From: Gammaproteobacteria bacterium
Lineage (GTDB): Bacteria > Pseudomonadota > Gammaproteobacteria > GCA-001735895
Direction of reading: 5' to 3'
Assembly: GCA_024232855.1 (NCBI GenBank)
Contig: JAAEPH010000038.1
Coordinates: 1-32,767, forward strand
DNA: 32,767 nucleotides
Shown here: positions 24,242 to 31,242 of the stretch, in pieces
Numbering within the stretch: position 1 is the first letter of the stretch
How the letters are laid out: each line of letters opens with the position of its first letter
Program-made: the position numbers and the translations under genes
The notes under the pieces: model-generated
The model's database searches: none
The model's input: the letters and a program-made list of their open reading frames with translations, nothing else
Told to the model about the DNA's origin: nothing

Positions 24242-24676
24242 TCACAAAAACCTGATTTCCCTGGCTTCTCTTCCGTCGAGTTCGCACTCGAATGGTTTGG
24301 TGATCAACTCTTCGCTGCCATTCTTACTGAAACGAACCGCGCCCAAGAGCACTTGATCGGTGGATGGCTTGGGGTTGCTAAAACCAATGGTGATATATTG
24401 AGGAAATTGCCCGGATTCCAGGATCAGCTTCTTGCAGTGCAACTTCGGACAACTGCCAATCGCATAGGTGGGTAGGGGTGGCTCGCAGTTTGCAACCGAT
24501 ATTTCCCCATCGATCACGGTAATTTTGGGCAGGCTCTGGACCCACAATACCCCCATTCCGGCAACTGAAACAATAAAAGCGATCAGCAGGCTGACAAAGA
24601 TTCGCCGTTTCAAATCGCCATTGTTTGCAGGGTGGTTCATTCCAGGCTCGGTTTGCGGATCAGTTTGCAAGAACAT
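24242..24676 (-). CDS. Small membrane-anchored protein of unknown function in the cox operon
   Basis: The 144-aa ORF has one transmembrane segment (about residues 27-47, FVSLLIAFIVSVAGMGVLWV). An outward domain of about 95 residues follows, with a few cysteines (NCEPP, SCPKLHC). I do not recognise the family. It is last in the oxidase operon, convergent with the M1 peptidase gene and only 14 bp from it. The start may be ATG 24640 (MNHPANNGD), which removes the overlap with the SCO gene, because neither candidate has a clear ribosome site. Its location suggests a role in oxidase assembly, but this is context only. Confidence 0.65.
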   Translation of the reverse strand: MFLQTDPQTEPGMNHPANNGDLKRRIFVSLLIAFIVSVAGMGVLWVQSLPKITVIDGEISVANCEPPLPTYAIGSCPKLHCKKLILESGQFPQYITIGFSNPKPSTDQVLLGAVRFSKNGSEELITKPFECELDGREAREIRFL

Positions 24677-25313
24677 AATGATAGTCTTTGGCGATAGTAT
24701 TGGCGTTGTGGGGTGCTGAGGTCAAACTGCGCACGCGCGCCTGCGGGTCAACCAGCAGTATCGCGGTGGTATGGTTGATTGAATAGTTACCCTCATTGTC
24801 AGGGCTATTTTTCTCGTAAAATATGCCTAACGGTTTAGTCATTTTTTTCAACTGGTTCTCGGGGCCGGTTACACCAAGAAAGTCCTGATGGAAATAGGTC
24901 ATGTATTCGGCAAGATTCTCGGGGCTATCCCGGTCGGAGTCGATCGAGACAAATATGTACCTGGGCTTTGCCAGCTCGGTTTTCTGCTGTAGCGTTTTAT
25001 CTACCTCCATTAACACATTAATGGTGGTGGGACATACGTCCGGACAACTGGTGTAGCCAAAAAATAGAAACGACCACTGCTCCTTCAAACTATCCCGGGT
25101 AAAGCGGTCCCCGTTCTGATCAATAAGCTCGAACTCCGGCATGCCGAGCGGCTCGTGCAGCACGGTTGCCCGGGTATTTGCCGGTACCAGGCTCAGCTTT
25201 TCGGGAGATTTCAGGAACTCACCGACGATCCAGGCCGCGCCGAGCACAGCCGCGGCCATACCGAGGCCAAACAGCATTTCAGCAAGACGAATCCTGGTGA
25301 CAATATGATTCAA
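24660..25313 (-). CDS. SCO1/SenC-family copper chaperone (second copy)
   Basis: The protein has an N-terminal membrane anchor (LFGLGMAAAVLGAAWIV) and a thioredoxin-fold SCO domain with the copper-binding CPDVC motif. The distal His is in SINHTTAILLVD. SCO proteins deliver copper to, and reduce the cysteines of, the CuA site of oxidase subunit II at the outer face of the inner membrane. The track ORF (to 25493) overlaps ctaD by 155 bp, so it is too long. TTG 25313 gives 217 aa with positive charges before the membrane segment; ATG 25277 (205 aa) is the alternative. It follows ctaD in the operon. Confidence 0.85.
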   Translation of the reverse strand: MNHIVTRIRLAEMLFGLGMAAAVLGAAWIVGEFLKSPEKLSLVPANTRATVLHEPLGMPEFELIDQNGDRFTRDSLKEQWSFLFFGYTSCPDVCPTTINVLMEVDKTLQQKTELAKPRYIFVSIDSDRDSPENLAEYMTYFHQDFLGVTGPENQLKKMTKPLGIFYEKNSPDNEGNYSINHTTAILLVDPQARVRSLTSAPHNANTIAKDYHYVLAN

Positions 25314-25338
25314 AACAGGGGCTGCCGGGCTGCTTTCG

Positions 25339-26922
25339 TCAACGCTTCCCTTTGTAGTTGTATGGATGCCAATCCGGATCGATGGTCGGAAGCACGGGCC
25401 AGTTACCATGCGGGGGCGGTGTCGCTGTCGTCCATTCCAGCGAATTGGATCCCCAGGGATTATCGGGAGCTTTCTCGCCATAGATCGCCCCATGGATCCA
25501 GTTGCCCAAGGCGAGCACGAATCCTATCCCGATCAGTACCGATCCAACAGTCATGACCATCTGATCGCTTTCGAACTGCGGAAGATGGGCATAGTCATAA
25601 TATCGCCTGGGCATGCCGGCAAGTCCCATTTCCATCTGTGTCCAGAAGGCGACGTTGGTGCCGACAAAGGAAAGCCAGAAACCTATCTTGCCTACGGTTT
25701 CGTTGTACATTCGACCGGTCATTTTCGGAAAAATGTAATAAACGCCCGCAAAGATGGCAAAGGTGCCAGCCACCGCCATGACGTAATGGAAATGACCAAC
25801 GATGAAATAGGTGTCGGAGATATGCAAATCCAGCGAGGCGATAGCATTGGGAATGCCGGTCAGGCCGCCGATAAGGAACAGGAATATGAATCCCATGGCG
25901 TATTGCATCGGCGTTCTGCTCAGGTCGATCGATCCCTTGTACAGGGTACCCACCAGGCCGATCAGCATCAGGCCGACCGGAACCGAAATCAGCAGGGTGG
26001 TGACCATTTGCCCGACCCGAATCCAGTCGGGCATGCCGGTAACGAACAGGTGGTGAACCCAGACCTCCCCGGAAACCAGCACGATGCCACCGATCCCGCC
26101 GTATACCACCACTTTGTAATTGAACACCATGTTCTTACAGAATGTGGCGACAATTTCCATGATGATCGCGAAGAATGGCAGAAAAATTACATACACCGCC
26201 GGGTGGGAATAAAACCAGAACAGATTCTGATAAGTGAGCACGTCGCCACCCGTGGTGGTGTCGAAGAAATTCGTGCCCAGGTATTTATCGAAGGCGATTA
26301 ATAGAACGGCGGTGCCCAGTACCGGGACGAAAATCAGCTGAATCACAAATGCAGCGATGGTGGCCCAGACGAAAACATTCAACTGGTTCCAGCCCATACC
26401 CTTGGCCCGCATGAATGATACGGTAGTCAGAAAATTGATCCCGGCAATAATGGAGGCGAAGCCGATTAATAACACGGTGAAGGTATACAGTGCCGTATTG
26501 CCCGTGGTAATCACCGAATACGGTGGATAACCGGTCCACATTATATCCGGCGGATCGGGTACCACAAAGGTCAGCAGCGCCAGAACGACGCCCATGAAGA
26601 ACAACCAGACGCTGAATGCATTCAGGCGGGGAAAAGCAACGTCTTTCGCGCCTATCATGAGCGGTATGAAATAGTTGGCCATGAACCCGGTGAGGGCCGG
26701 GATCTGAAAGCCGAGAATCATCGCGGCCCCGTGGAAGTATAGCCAGACGTTATAGGTAGTAGGGTCGTCGGTAATGGTCGGGCCTATGTAAGTCAGCTCG
26801 GCGCGGATCAGCAGAGCCATGATTCCCGCAATACAAAAGGCTGCAATGGACCCGATAAGATATAAGATCCCTACGCGTTTATGGTCGGTGGTAAATATCC
26901 ACTCACTAAGAACTTTACCCAT
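25339..26922 (-). CDS. ctaD: Cytochrome c oxidase subunit I, A2-type heme-copper oxidase
   Basis: The product is 527 aa from ATG 26922, which has GGGGAG about ten bases upstream; the extra 36 codons of the track ORF overlap the ctaC 3' end. Heme and copper ligands are visible: His64 (low-spin heme), His240 and Tyr244 in WFYSHPAVY, His290-His291 in VHHLF, and His377 and His379 in VGHFHYVM. The YSHP motif, with Ala242 at the A1-family Glu position (HPEVY), is the mark of A2-type oxidases, where Tyr and Ser replace the D-channel glutamate. It reduces O2 to water and pumps protons. No C-terminal fusion to subunit III is present. Confidence 0.95.
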   Translation of the reverse strand: MGKVLSEWIFTTDHKRVGILYLIGSIAAFCIAGIMALLIRAELTYIGPTITDDPTTYNVWLYFHGAAMILGFQIPALTGFMANYFIPLMIGAKDVAFPRLNAFSVWLFFMGVVLALLTFVVPDPPDIMWTGYPPYSVITTGNTALYTFTVLLIGFASIIAGINFLTTVSFMRAKGMGWNQLNVFVWATIAAFVIQLIFVPVLGTAVLLIAFDKYLGTNFFDTTTGGDVLTYQNLFWFYSHPAVYVIFLPFFAIIMEIVATFCKNMVFNYKVVVYGGIGGIVLVSGEVWVHHLFVTGMPDWIRVGQMVTTLLISVPVGLMLIGLVGTLYKGSIDLSRTPMQYAMGFIFLFLIGGLTGIPNAIASLDLHISDTYFIVGHFHYVMAVAGTFAIFAGVYYIFPKMTGRMYNETVGKIGFWLSFVGTNVAFWTQMEMGLAGMPRRYYDYAHLPQFESDQMVMTVGSVLIGIGFVLALGNWIHGAIYGEKAPDNPWGSNSLEWTTATPPPHGNWPVLPTIDPDWHPYNYKGKR

Positions 26923-26927
26923 AGCCG

Positions 26928-27752
26928 TTAACTCCCCTGCTCGATATTTTTCTTGGTTACTGTCACCATGGATTCTCCAGTGGCGTTGCTCTTTTTCCGG
27001 GATAGCCTGCTTTCTTCCTCGGAGTACCATTGGTCGAATTCAGCAGGTACCATGACTTCAATGCGCCCGATCATATACGAGTGCATGACGCCGCAAAATT
27101 CCGTACAGGTGACCAGGTTATCCTTGTCGCCTATGTCTTCTTCTTTCGGGTAGAACCACAGATAGGTTACGCGCCCGGGCATGGAGTCCTCTTTCACCCG
27201 GTATCGCGCCAGGAAGTGGCTGTGAATCGTATCCCGGCTTGTCATTCTCAGCATAATGGGTTTACCCGCCGGGACCCGCAACAGGTTCTGCGTCTGAATC
27301 CCATTCGGGTAGGTATAGTCCCAGCTGTACATGCCGCTTTCCAGCTTGACCTCCATTCGGTCTGCCGGCACGTCGCGATACTTGTTCCACAACTGCCAGC
27401 CCTTTGCAGCCAGATAGAAATCGTCGGCCATGAATATGAAGGCCGGAATCAATGCCCAGCCCACCGCCTGCACCGCGCTGAACCGGGGTCCGTCGCCCAC
27501 CTGATCGGGATGCTTTCGACGATACCTGAACATGAACCACAGGGTTAACGCGGCAAATGCCACTCCCATTATGGTGATGTCCAACATGACCGTATCCCAG
27601 AGTTCGTCAAAACCCGGTGCCGGATCGTTTATGGTGTCGGAAAGGCTGGTTTCAAATGCGTACACGCCACTCGAGTGCAACAGGAACAACAGACTGAAGC
27701 AGAGGAGTGCCGGGTACAGGTCCTTTCTTTTTTTAACGTCGTTTTTACACAT
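26928..27752 (-). CDS. ctaC: Cytochrome c oxidase subunit II with CuA site
   Basis: The 274-aa protein has an N-terminal hydrophobic segment (probably a signal, SGVYA) and two transmembrane helices (about 52-76 and 92-112). A cupredoxin domain follows. The CuA ligands are complete: His177 in TIHSH, and Cys216, Glu218, Cys220, His224 and Met227 in CTEFCGVMHSYM. It takes electrons from a soluble cytochrome c and passes them to subunit I. No cytochrome c domain is fused at the C-terminus, so the oxidase is not of caa3 type and needs a separate donor. Such a donor is encoded divergently at 29663. The start overlaps the preceding SCO stop by one base (TGATG). Confidence 0.95.
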   Translation of the reverse strand: MCKNDVKKRKDLYPALLCFSLLFLLHSSGVYAFETSLSDTINDPAPGFDELWDTVMLDITIMGVAFAALTLWFMFRYRRKHPDQVGDGPRFSAVQAVGWALIPAFIFMADDFYLAAKGWQLWNKYRDVPADRMEVKLESGMYSWDYTYPNGIQTQNLLRVPAGKPIMLRMTSRDTIHSHFLARYRVKEDSMPGRVTYLWFYPKEEDIGDKDNLVTCTEFCGVMHSYMIGRIEVMVPAEFDQWYSEEESRLSRKKSNATGESMVTVTKKNIEQGS

Positions 27753-28675
27753 CAGGTAACCTCTTTGTTCAGTCGGACTTTATGTCTGTAAATCAGGGTC
27801 GAGAGACCAATTAGCGACAGGCCGAAGACCAGTGCCGCCAGACCTGCAACCAGTGATAGGTTTAAGGTGTATTTGCCTTCCTTGAAATTGTAGCTATAGC
27901 AAACGCCGGTCAGGATATCGATGACGTTGGACGAGTTCGAAATCCTGCCCCAATCGGCATCGATAAGCGCCTTTTCGATAGTATCCGGCTCCATGGAAGT
28001 ACCGTAGAGATAGCGCGCCACCCGCCCCTGAGGGGTCAGGAATACCACCGCATTGGGATGCAGGAATACTTCATCCGCCCGGGACCAGAAGAATTTGTAA
28101 CCGACACTGGATGTCAAAACCTCCAGATCGGTTTGCCTGTTTTGCAATACGGCGTGGCGCCAGCCACTGGAATTGAGGGGCGACAGCTCGTTTTCATCGA
28201 CAAAGGTTTGCATGCTCTCGGCAGTATCGTGCCGGTCAAATGAAACCGTGAGCACGCTGAAGTCCTTCCCCAGTTCAAATCGATCGATTTTCTCCAGGGC
28301 CTGCTTCAGTAAGGTATTCATGATCGGGCAACTGCCGCCACACCCGTAATACGAGAACAACAATATTACCGGATTGCCCAGCATCTCGCCCAGAACGAAG
28401 CGGTTTCCTTCGCTATCCACCATTGCGAGATCCCGGGGTATCGGTGCCCCGAGATAACTCGGTTCATCGATTTGCATTACTCCCGGGTCGATGTTCGATT
28501 CCCCGGTGAAGCTTCCGTATGGCGCGACGGCCAATGCGGCCTGAGACCAGAACATTGCAAGAAAGCCCACTCCGGCAAACCGACCGGAAAAGCGCCGCAA
28601 TCTATGTGCTAAAAATGGACCACCCACTAACATCAGCTGTGTATAACTACCAGAAATAAACCTGGGAAACGACAA
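27752..28675 (-). CDS. SCO1/SenC-family protein with C-terminal membrane segment
   Basis: The track protein is 307 aa. After an N-terminal signal-like segment (about 30-50) comes a thioredoxin-fold SCO domain with CGGSC (Cys112, Cys116) and His206 in FLHPNAVVF, the copper ligands. A C-terminal transmembrane helix (about 272-295, LVAGLAALVFGLSLIGLSTLIY) makes it differ from ordinary single-anchor SCO proteins. It resembles the SCO-like proteins found beside A2-type oxidases. It is presumably used for CuA assembly. GTG/ATG choices are unclear: 28675 overlaps the subunit III end by 29 bp, and ATG 28633 (MLVGGPFL) avoids the overlap. Confidence 0.85.
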   Translation of the reverse strand: MSFPRFISGSYTQLMLVGGPFLAHRLRRFSGRFAGVGFLAMFWSQAALAVAPYGSFTGESNIDPGVMQIDEPSYLGAPIPRDLAMVDSEGNRFVLGEMLGNPVILLFSYYGCGGSCPIMNTLLKQALEKIDRFELGKDFSVLTVSFDRHDTAESMQTFVDENELSPLNSSGWRHAVLQNRQTDLEVLTSSVGYKFFWSRADEVFLHPNAVVFLTPQGRVARYLYGTSMEPDTIEKALIDADWGRISNSSNVIDILTGVCYSYNFKEGKYTLNLSLVAGLAALVFGLSLIGLSTLIYRHKVRLNKEVT

Positions 28676-29399
28676 AGAACCATATGATATCGACGAAATG
28701 CCAGTAGAGAGCCCCGGCTTTTACCAGGCCGGTATTTATCCTGTTTTTCAATGCCGGCAAAAGCATGGTGAGAAAAATACAGAGGCCAACCAGAACGTGG
28801 GAGGCGTGAAAGCCGGTAACACTGAAAAAGGAGGTGCTATAAACGTTGGTCGATACGGTGAATCCCTGCCCTATTAAATCACCCCACTCGTACAGGGATA
28901 AACCGAGGAAAGCGGCGCCGAGCAGCATGGTTATTTTCAACCACTTGACAAAGCCGGCCTTATCGTCGTTTTCAAGCCGGGCTTCACCGGCATGAATGGT
29001 GAAGCTGGAGGCAACCAGAAACACGGTCATTATCATGGGTATCACCACCGGCATTGCTGCTGGAGTTCCAGCGGGAGGCCAGTCGGGAGTTAACAGCCGT
29101 TGCAGCCAGTAATTGGCGAACAGCGACAGGAAGATCATCGCTTCCGCGAGGATGAACCAACCCATTGACGGGACGCTGAGACCTTCGCTTTCACCATCGA
29201 TTGTCTCGTTTACCCAGATGACAATACCGCCAATTATCAGTGGCGTACCAAGGCCCAGACTGATAATCGCAGCCAAACCGCTGTCATAAACGAAATAAAA
29301 AATAAACGCCAGGCACAGGAACAGAATGCCCACACTAATTATCAAAGGCGCGGTACTGGTATCCCAATGATCGTCATGCGTCGTTGCGTTTTCAGCCAT
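28647..29399 (-). CDS. ctaE: Cytochrome c oxidase subunit III
   Basis: The 250-aa protein has seven predicted membrane helices. Family motifs are LAEAMIFLSLFANYW in the third helix, VTGFHASHVLVGL in the sixth, and YWHFVDIIWFF in the last. Subunit III stabilises the oxidase core and lies in the inner membrane. It is the first gene of the operon, with a GGGGGA ribosome site. The order III-SCO-II-I-SCO is not the common II-I-assembly-III order. No heme A synthase or farnesyltransferase genes (ctaA, ctaB) are in the window. Confidence 0.93.
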   Translation of the reverse strand: MAENATTHDDHWDTSTAPLIISVGILFLCLAFIFYFVYDSGLAAIISLGLGTPLIIGGIVIWVNETIDGESEGLSVPSMGWFILAEAMIFLSLFANYWLQRLLTPDWPPAGTPAAMPVVIPMIMTVFLVASSFTIHAGEARLENDDKAGFVKWLKITMLLGAAFLGLSLYEWGDLIGQGFTVSTNVYSTSFFSVTGFHASHVLVGLCIFLTMLLPALKNRINTGLVKAGALYWHFVDIIWFFVVSQVYFW

Positions 29400-29577: not shown

Positions 29578-29662
29578 GCCAAATGATTGTAAGGGAGACT
29601 CTTGCTGTTATCAACTCTTACCGTTATCCTGCAGCGATATTTAGCGGAGGGTACTTAGCAAG

Positions 29663-30304
29663 ATGAAAAGAGTCGTTTTTCAAATACTGGTCTACTCGAT
29701 AGCCTGCGGTATATCCGGTAGCGCGATGGCTGCCGGTAATCCCGAGGCCGGCCAGGCCAAATCCGCGGCCTGTGCTGCCTGCCATATGCCAGATGGGAAC
29801 AGTGTCATGCCTGAATGGCCAAAGATTGCCGGACAGATACCAGACTACCTGGTCAGCCAGTTGATGGCCTTTAAGAATGGGGATCGCAAAAATGCCATCA
29901 TGGACCCAATTGTCAAGCCATTGAGTGAGCAGGATATTGAAGATATCGCGGCGTATTACAGCGGGCAGAAAATCCAGCTCGGCGTTGCCAAACCGGAACA
30001 ACTGGCCGTCGGCGAGAAATTGTACAAAAAAGGAGTATTCTATACACCATTGACTGCCTGTACCGGTTGTCATGGTATGGATGGCCAGGGCAATCGAACC
30101 TGGCAAGAAGTGCTGACAGTCCCGCCTACCATATTGACCCCCGCCATTGGCGGCCAACATGCGGCCTACGTGGTAAATCAGCTCAAGGCATTCAGGTCGG
30201 GCGAACGAAGCACCGATGTTGCTGCTGTAATGCGGAAAATAGCCCAGCAAATGAGTGATGAGCAGATCGAAGCGGTGGCGGAATACGTAACCCAGTTACA
30301 GTGA
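29663..30304 (+). CDS. Diheme cytochrome c, cytochrome c4-like
   Basis: The 213-aa protein has a signal peptide (residues 1-24, SGSAMAA) and two similar class I cytochrome domains with CAACH at 37-41 and CTGCH at 133-137. Distal Met residues are likely in NAIMDPIV and in the equivalent place of the second half. This layout is that of periplasmic cytochrome c4, an electron donor to oxidases. It is divergent from the oxidase operon, whose subunit II lacks a heme domain, so it is a natural donor. GGAGG precedes the ATG by about 14 bases, slightly far. Confidence 0.9.
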   Translation: MKRVVFQILVYSIACGISGSAMAAGNPEAGQAKSAACAACHMPDGNSVMPEWPKIAGQIPDYLVSQLMAFKNGDRKNAIMDPIVKPLSEQDIEDIAAYYSGQKIQLGVAKPEQLAVGEKLYKKGVFYTPLTACTGCHGMDGQGNRTWQEVLTVPPTILTPAIGGQHAAYVVNQLKAFRSGERSTDVAAVMRKIAQQMSDEQIEAVAEYVTQLQ

Positions 30305-30444: not shown

Positions 30445-31173
30445 TCATAATAAGTTGAGAGGGAGGGAGGCAACCTTTTTCAGCTTTACAATATCCTTTA
30501 TCTCGAAATACTTTCCACTGGAGACAATCAATCCCTGTTGATGGAACCGTGCCAGGACGCGGCTTACGGTGCATTTAGCCAGTCCCAGGTAACTGGCAAT
30601 ATCATCACGCGCCATACTCAAGCGAAACTCTCTTGCCGAAAAACCGTGCTCCTGGAAACGAATGGAAACCCCCGCCAGAAAGGCGGCCAGGCGCTCATCC
30701 GCTTTTCGGCGGCCGGTTAACAGGGTCATTAATCGGTTCACATGAAAAAGCTGCTCGCTCATCAAACTGATAAGGCGGCCCTGAAAATCAGGTATTTGAT
30801 GACTGATATCTTCAACTGACTCCTGGTCGATTGCACAGACATACGAATTCTCAAGCGCCACGGCATTGTAGCAATGCTTTCCTGTATACCTGGCGCCTGC
30901 ATCCAGCATCTCTCCGGCAAAACTAAATCCTGCTACTTTGCCCGGATTGCCCGAAACCACCAGCTTGAATGAACCCGCAGAGACACATTCAAATGATTTA
31001 AAGGGGTCGCAGGCGGAAAACAGTATTTCATCCTTTTTGATCAGTTTCCGCCGATGCAAAACTCCTCCAACCAGGTCAAGACTTTTACCGGCCACCTCAA
31101 ATGGCATGCACAGGGCATGCATTTCGCAGCTGGCGCAGGATACGTAGTCGTTGTCTGATTTTTTCTTGGCCAT
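30445..31173 (-). CDS. FNR-type Crp/Fnr-family regulator with cluster-binding cysteines
   Basis: The 242-aa protein has CASCEMHALC at 13-22, exactly the C-X2-C-X5-C spacing of FNR, and a fourth cysteine at 113 (YVCAI). It therefore probably holds an oxygen-labile [4Fe-4S] cluster. The sensor domain is followed by a long dimerisation helix and a winged HTH (RDDIASYLGLAKCTVSRVLARF). The FNR recognition helix has E-x-x-S-R; here Ser204 and Arg205 are kept but the Glu position is Cys201, so the target site may differ from TTGAT-N4-ATCAA. It lies between the respiratory genes and a transporter, and oxygen-linked control of these is plausible but not shown. Confidence 0.9.
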   Translation of the reverse strand: MAKKKSDNDYVSCASCEMHALCMPFEVAGKSLDLVGGVLHRRKLIKKDEILFSACDPFKSFECVSAGSFKLVVSGNPGKVAGFSFAGEMLDAGARYTGKHCYNAVALENSYVCAIDQESVEDISHQIPDFQGRLISLMSEQLFHVNRLMTLLTGRRKADERLAAFLAGVSIRFQEHGFSAREFRLSMARDDIASYLGLAKCTVSRVLARFHQQGLIVSSGKYFEIKDIVKLKKVASLPLNLL

Positions 31174-31222
31174 AGGTCGATTTTCAATAACTCGTGATGG
31201 GGCAGCTCCCGATACGGCACCT

Positions 31223-31242
31223 TCATGGAGCAGTATCCATGA
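31223..31242. promoter_or_regulatory. 20-bp dyad upstream of the FNR-like gene
   Basis: TCATGGA-N6-TCCATGA is a perfect 7-bp dyad in the 159-bp gap between the FNR-like gene and the MFS gene, about 50 bp before the FNR-like ATG. The central ATGGA-N6-TCCAT has the half-site spacing of CRP-type operators (TGTGA-N6-TCACA). It could be an autoregulatory site. Confidence 0.45.

Follow-up and report, generated by a model that had tools for sequence, protein, structure and literature searches.

An FNR-type regulator lacking the recognition-helix glutamate is linked to cytochrome c oxidase genes in a gammaproteobacterium

Regulators of the FNR/ANR type have been studied in E. coli, A. fischeri and P. 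putida, and departures from the standard form have been described. P. putida has extra FNR paralogues, PP_3233 and PP_3287, in which residues flanking the cluster are changed, and in PP_3287 a residue of the recognition helix is changed as well (Ser to Cys); binding to the standard FNR site was seen in preliminary assays for each of the three P. putida proteins (PMC4505428). A precedent for changed specificity after loss of the residue equivalent to CRP Glu181 is HcpR2, which has Pro, Ser or Gln at this position and changed operators, found by comparison (PMC1274295). FixK2 of B. diazoefficiens is a protein of the CRP/FNR type that regulates an oxidase operon and has a single cysteine, C183, and hence no cluster ligands; this functionally important residue lies near the DNA, and its oxidation inactivates the protein (PMC9104804). 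Both FNR paralogues with altered recognition or cluster-flanking residues and operator change following glutamate loss are thus already known. A small search of the open-access literature returned no cluster-bearing FNR whose glutamate is lost and drifting within an oxidase-linked clade.

Here we describe an FNR-type regulator, FNRx, encoded in a 32,767-nucleotide stretch of a gammaproteobacterial genome (contig JAAEPH010000038.1, positions 1 to 32,767; hereafter the window). The features discussed are collected in Table 1.

Table 1 Features of the FNRx locus in the window.
Feature	Position	Strand	Basis and remarks
Cytochrome c oxidase subunit I	25339..27030	minus	Pfam COX1; start codon uncertain
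Cytochrome c oxidase subunit II	26928..27752	minus	Pfam COX2
SCO1/SenC-like copper protein	27752..28675	minus	Pfam SCO1-SenC; start codon uncertain
Cytochrome c oxidase subunit III	28647..29399	minus	Pfam COX3
Di-heme cytochrome c gene (c4-like)	29663..30304	plus	Pfam; convergent with FNRx; syntenic in L070, L069, L110
FNR-type regulator gene (FNRx)	30445..31173	minus	242 aa; ORF, Pfam, FNR structures by sequence and fold
Codon 201, TGC (Cys) for FNR Glu209	30571..30573	minus	Alignment; Gly and Asp in two orthologues
Fourth cluster cysteine, codon 113	30835..30837	minus	Alignment with FNR C122
Cluster cysteines C13, C16, C22 (codons 13-22)	31108..31137	minus	Alignment with FNR C20, C23, C29
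Dyad TCATGGA-N6-TCCATGA in leader	31223..31242	.	Exact match; probably not operator

FNRx is an FNR-type protein by its four cysteines, its sensor domain and Crp-type helix-turn-helix (HTH), and its fold. The reading frame is intact from the ATG at 31173, and there is no in-frame ATG, GTG or TTG upstream of it. The product has Pfam matches to HTH_Crp_2, Crp and cNMP_binding and matches the A. fischeri FNR structures by sequence (E 2.6e-42); its AlphaFold model has a mean pLDDT of 81.9, and the best 11 Foldseek matches of this model are all A. fischeri FNR. Residues C13, C16, C22 and C113 align with the cluster ligands of FNR (C20, C23, C29 and C122), in agreement with the preliminary description of this DNA, which had reported the cluster cysteines as kept. 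The score against the NCBIfam Fnr subfamily model NF008365 is 184.3 bits and lies below the cut-off of 228 bits, but the canonical FNR of the same genome also falls short of it (189 bits), so this model does not discriminate. Two further cysteines which are not part of the cluster set, C63 (30984-30986) and C101 (30871-30873), are conserved in all three orthologues.

While FNRx shares with FNR and ANR the four cysteines, the fold and two residues of the E-x-x-S-R motif (Ser and Arg), it differs from them in several places: Glu209 is lost, Val208 is replaced by Lys and Asp154 by Val, the AR3 loop is two residues shorter, the dimer helix is one residue longer, and the neighbours of Cys23 are changed. 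The DNA helix reads K200-C201-T-V-S204-R205, within the stretch LGLAKCTVSR, compared with V208-E209-T-I-S212-R213 in FNR, and residues 200-212 form one confident helix in the AlphaFold model. The alignment places Cys201 at FNR Glu209 (CRP Glu181) and Lys200 at FNR Val208 (CRP Arg180), and so bears out the C-x-x-S-R that had been noted in place of E-x-x-S-R. The substitution in PP_3287 lies at another position of the helix. The HcpR2 proteins resemble FNRx in having lost the glutamate, but they are devoid of the FNR cysteines, and FNRx is therefore not a member of that group.

Three orthologues are known, including the window protein. The other two are 87% identical (L032/L003, with KGTVSR) and 73% identical (L033/L004, with KDTVSR), so that Gly and Asp take the place of the motif glutamate in them. 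The codons for residue 201 are TGC in the window, GGT in the 87% orthologue and GAT in the 73% orthologue, which is consistent with a drift from Glu to Asp to Gly to Cys. We compared this position across a set of 131 distinct FNR-type proteins drawn from the searched genomes: it is Glu in 127, unreadable in one fragment, and Cys, Gly or Asp in FNRx and its two orthologues, to which loss of the glutamate is restricted within this sample. A sequencing error at Cys201 was considered and is unlikely to matter, as both orthologues are in-frame and intact and also have no Glu.

The cysteine is thus not the conserved specificity residue that the preliminary description took it for. The same variation bears on a reading in which Cys201 is a thiol switch whose oxidation blocks DNA binding, in the manner of FixK2 Cys183 (PMC9104804): a conserved cysteine next to the DNA is absent from this family, since the orthologues have Gly or Asp there, and the position differs from that of FixK2 C183. 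In spite of the FixK2 precedent, we find such a switch hardly credible.

FNRx is under purifying selection, with dN/dS of 0.19 and 0.15 in the comparisons with the two orthologues and an overall range of 0.13-0.19. Across HTH residues 186-226, the exchange of C201 for Gly is the sole amino-acid difference between the window protein and its nearest orthologue, and residue 201 therefore looks unconstrained, not tuned. S204 and R205 are invariant in the FNRx clade. From these alignments, the Glu contact looks to have been lost in the clade, with position 201 varying freely and the rest of the helix held.

The gene lies beside the cytochrome c gene and the coxIII-SCO-coxII-coxI oxidase genes in three genomes of the genus (the window, L032/L070 and L033/L069), and the genes on its other side differ among the three: regulator and oxidase stay together while their surroundings change. 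In G009, a fourth member of the genus, the oxidase and cytochrome c are the same, but the place of FNRx is taken by a transporter-like gene. The only match to the FNRx query in G009 is a canonical-type FNR, so the regulator is dispensable there. It could be argued from this genome, and from the variability of an otherwise invariant residue, that FNRx is a decaying paralogue with no function. The dN/dS values, the strict retention of the cluster cysteines and of the rest of the HTH, and the conserved synteny speak against decay and make it very unlikely.

The intergenic region upstream of the cytochrome c gene contains about 40 bases (29590-29631) which are almost identical in four genus genomes, the rest of the region having diverged. 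This putative regulatory element, which includes two copies of GTTATC in the window, is also present in G009, where there is no linked regulator. The oxidase itself (24660-29399; L066, L103-L110) has a patchy distribution, occurring in 4 of the 41 genomes of the family and in 8 more among 369 sampled class-wide, which suggests horizontal transfer.

The tree places FNRx in a clade of FNR paralogues that are linked to oxidases, a relationship unremarked in the preliminary description. An FNR-like protein of another family adjoins the same oxidase in genome G107 (36% identical, LAKETVSR), and a more distant one is next to it in G298 and G393. The tree joins the FNRx clade with the cox-linked L041/L066 (G107) and with L067 (G138), which is linked to ccoNOP, at an SH-aLRT of 99, although these are long branches meeting. 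The hallmarks of the clade are Lys at FNR position 208 and a dimer helix lengthened by one residue, both found in FNRx and in the L041/L066 and L067/f99 relatives; an oxidase neighbourhood is seen for L066 and L067. These relatives differ from FNRx in having kept Glu209. The shortened AR3 loop is common to the FNRx clade and the family f99 group. The FNR-like proteins of family f99 (L152 and L154-L166, as well as L067 in G138 beside ccoNOP) combine Lys208 and a retained Glu with Ile in place of Ser212, another difference from FNRx.

The same genome encodes a second, canonical FNR (LAVETVSR) and contains 16 perfect TTGAT-N4-ATCAA sites, compared with 0 for the control. In another genome of the genus, two canonical FNR genes stand in tandem (L019, genome G005). 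No TTGAT-N4-ATCAA with up to one mismatch was found in the Glu-less loci, an absence which does not show non-binding, and none with up to two mismatches was found in the FNRx leader. The cox-linked paralogues that keep Glu (L105 and L106; G298 and G393) have a perfect FNR box upstream of their own gene, and in G252, a genome without a linked regulator, there is one in the coxIII/cytochrome c intergenic region; perfect boxes near the same oxidase are located at L103:8870, L105:4093 and L106:5721. This pattern, with a box where the glutamate is kept or the regulator is missing and no box where the glutamate is lost, would fit a change of specificity, though the numbers are small.

A different account of the protein is that it is an oxygen sensor whose binding to ordinary FNR boxes is intact, with Ser204 and Arg205 sufficient and Glu dispensable, so that it shares part of the FNR regulon, perhaps over another oxygen range. 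In its favour, neither Ser nor Arg of the motif varies in the clade, and the genome contains the 16 perfect boxes; the changes beside the FNRx cluster resemble those that alter the oxygen response, and preliminary shift assays showed binding to the standard FF site by PP_3287, in which a different residue of the recognition helix is changed (PMC4505428), a result that counts against a shifted specificity in FNRx. However, neither the FNRx gene nor the linked oxidase has an FNR box, a canonical FNR is already present in the genome, and the glutamate is otherwise invariant in the 131-protein sample. On balance we regard this account as rather unlikely.

The preliminary description had instead proposed an oxygen sensor with an operator of its own, TCATGGA-N6-TCCATGA; such an operator would serve at least for autoregulation. 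The sequence supports an FNR-type Fe-S protein with respiratory neighbours and an unusual helix, but the dyad as operator does not hold up. The dyad is present as described: the plus strand has a single exact match, TCATGGA-GCAGTA-TCCATGA, with CRP-type spacing and with 49 bases from its near end to the ATG. With up to two mismatches allowed, the expected number of matches in the window is 0.05, a figure that applies to a pattern chosen after seeing it. The window contains 7 perfect 7+7 dyads with a 6-base gap, compared with 2.2 in shuffles, and the chance of such a dyad within 250 bp upstream is 1.4%, or 5.3% for any gap of 4-8. The dyad is therefore real but weak evidence of function.

Comparison with the orthologues points the same way. 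The L032 counterpart, TCGTGGA-TACTAC-TCCATGG, is identical to the window at 17/20 positions and keeps the core TGGA-N6-TCCA, but the 40 bases before it are identical at the same rate (34/40) and two of its three changes break the symmetry. The dyad is absent at L033, whose gene begins 24 bases after another gene, and from the cytochrome c/coxIII intergenic region in 4/4 genomes. Absence upstream of orthologues, which the preliminary description had named as telling against its proposal, is thus seen in full at L033 and by half at L032, where the core is kept in an asymmetric form. In pattern searches across the genome, ATGGA-N6-TCCAT occurs in 2 places, compared with 5 for the reversed control pattern, and the sole other exact site lies inside a gene resembling pdxH; the search for copies at other promoters accordingly gave no second intergenic one. 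Of the exact sites in seven related genomes, almost all are within long open reading frames. From the genome counts and the site positions in the eight genomes, we rejected the dyad as a regulon motif. Two other explanations were also discarded: a conserved RNA hairpin, because the window leader does not fold so (z -0.42), although G-U pairs are retained at the two changed arm positions of L032, and a position within the gene by way of an upstream start codon, because there is no such start. The fnr and cox/cytochrome c leaders of the three genomes were found to have no other shared N6 or FNR-like dyad. The L032 leader has a different near-perfect N6 dyad, missing from the window, which indicates that such dyads arise easily.

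A published correlation between CRP-type residues and operators associates Arg180 with G3 and Glu181 with A6 (PMC1274295). It lends general support to a changed operator for FNRx but tells against this dyad, which has T3 and keeps A6 where a change at A6 would be predicted. The exactness and spacing of the dyad, and its core in the nearest orthologue, favour the operator; its conservation at the rate of the flank, its absence at L033 and at the oxidase genes, the genome counts and the chance figures suggest that it is probably incidental, and we consider the proposed operator unlikely.

We favour a reading in which FNRx is a dedicated Fe-S oxygen sensor with a linked oxidase and a loosened or shifted DNA specificity, operating beside a canonical FNR, and put its probability at roughly 0.55. 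From cluster chemistry and DNA binding to the regulated genes and the direction of control, we infer the following course. At low oxygen a [4Fe-4S] cluster would form in FNRx and activate the dimer. Having retained Ser204 and Arg205 but lost the Glu contact, the HTH would read a looser or shifted half-site, and the protein would in this way most likely control the neighbouring cytochrome c and coxIII-SCO-coxII-coxI oxidase, to which its linkage points.

The oxygen range of this sensor could differ from that of FNR. Beside the Cys23 position, FNRx has Ser for Asp22 and Glu for Ser24, and since E. coli FNR gained aerobic activity through the substitutions D22G and S24R (PMC4505428), a different range is plausible. 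Nothing firm follows from the replacement of Asp154 by Val, as apo-ANR of P. putida is dimeric though its Asp154 is kept (PMC4505428).

A more specific version of events, which we put forward tentatively as possible but not probable, is that the clade dropped the glutamate and gained the adjacent Lys, which gave it an operator of its own, insulated from the canonical FNR, with residue 201 turning neutral once the switch had occurred. If FNRx does read its own sequence, it would show a duplicated FNR escaping crosstalk with the resident FNR, and the possible intermediates, Glu in the relatives and then Asp, Gly and Cys, are found in living lineages, which would make a stepwise change of specificity directly testable. 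If FNRx still binds FNR boxes, the textbook Glu contact would be dispensable.
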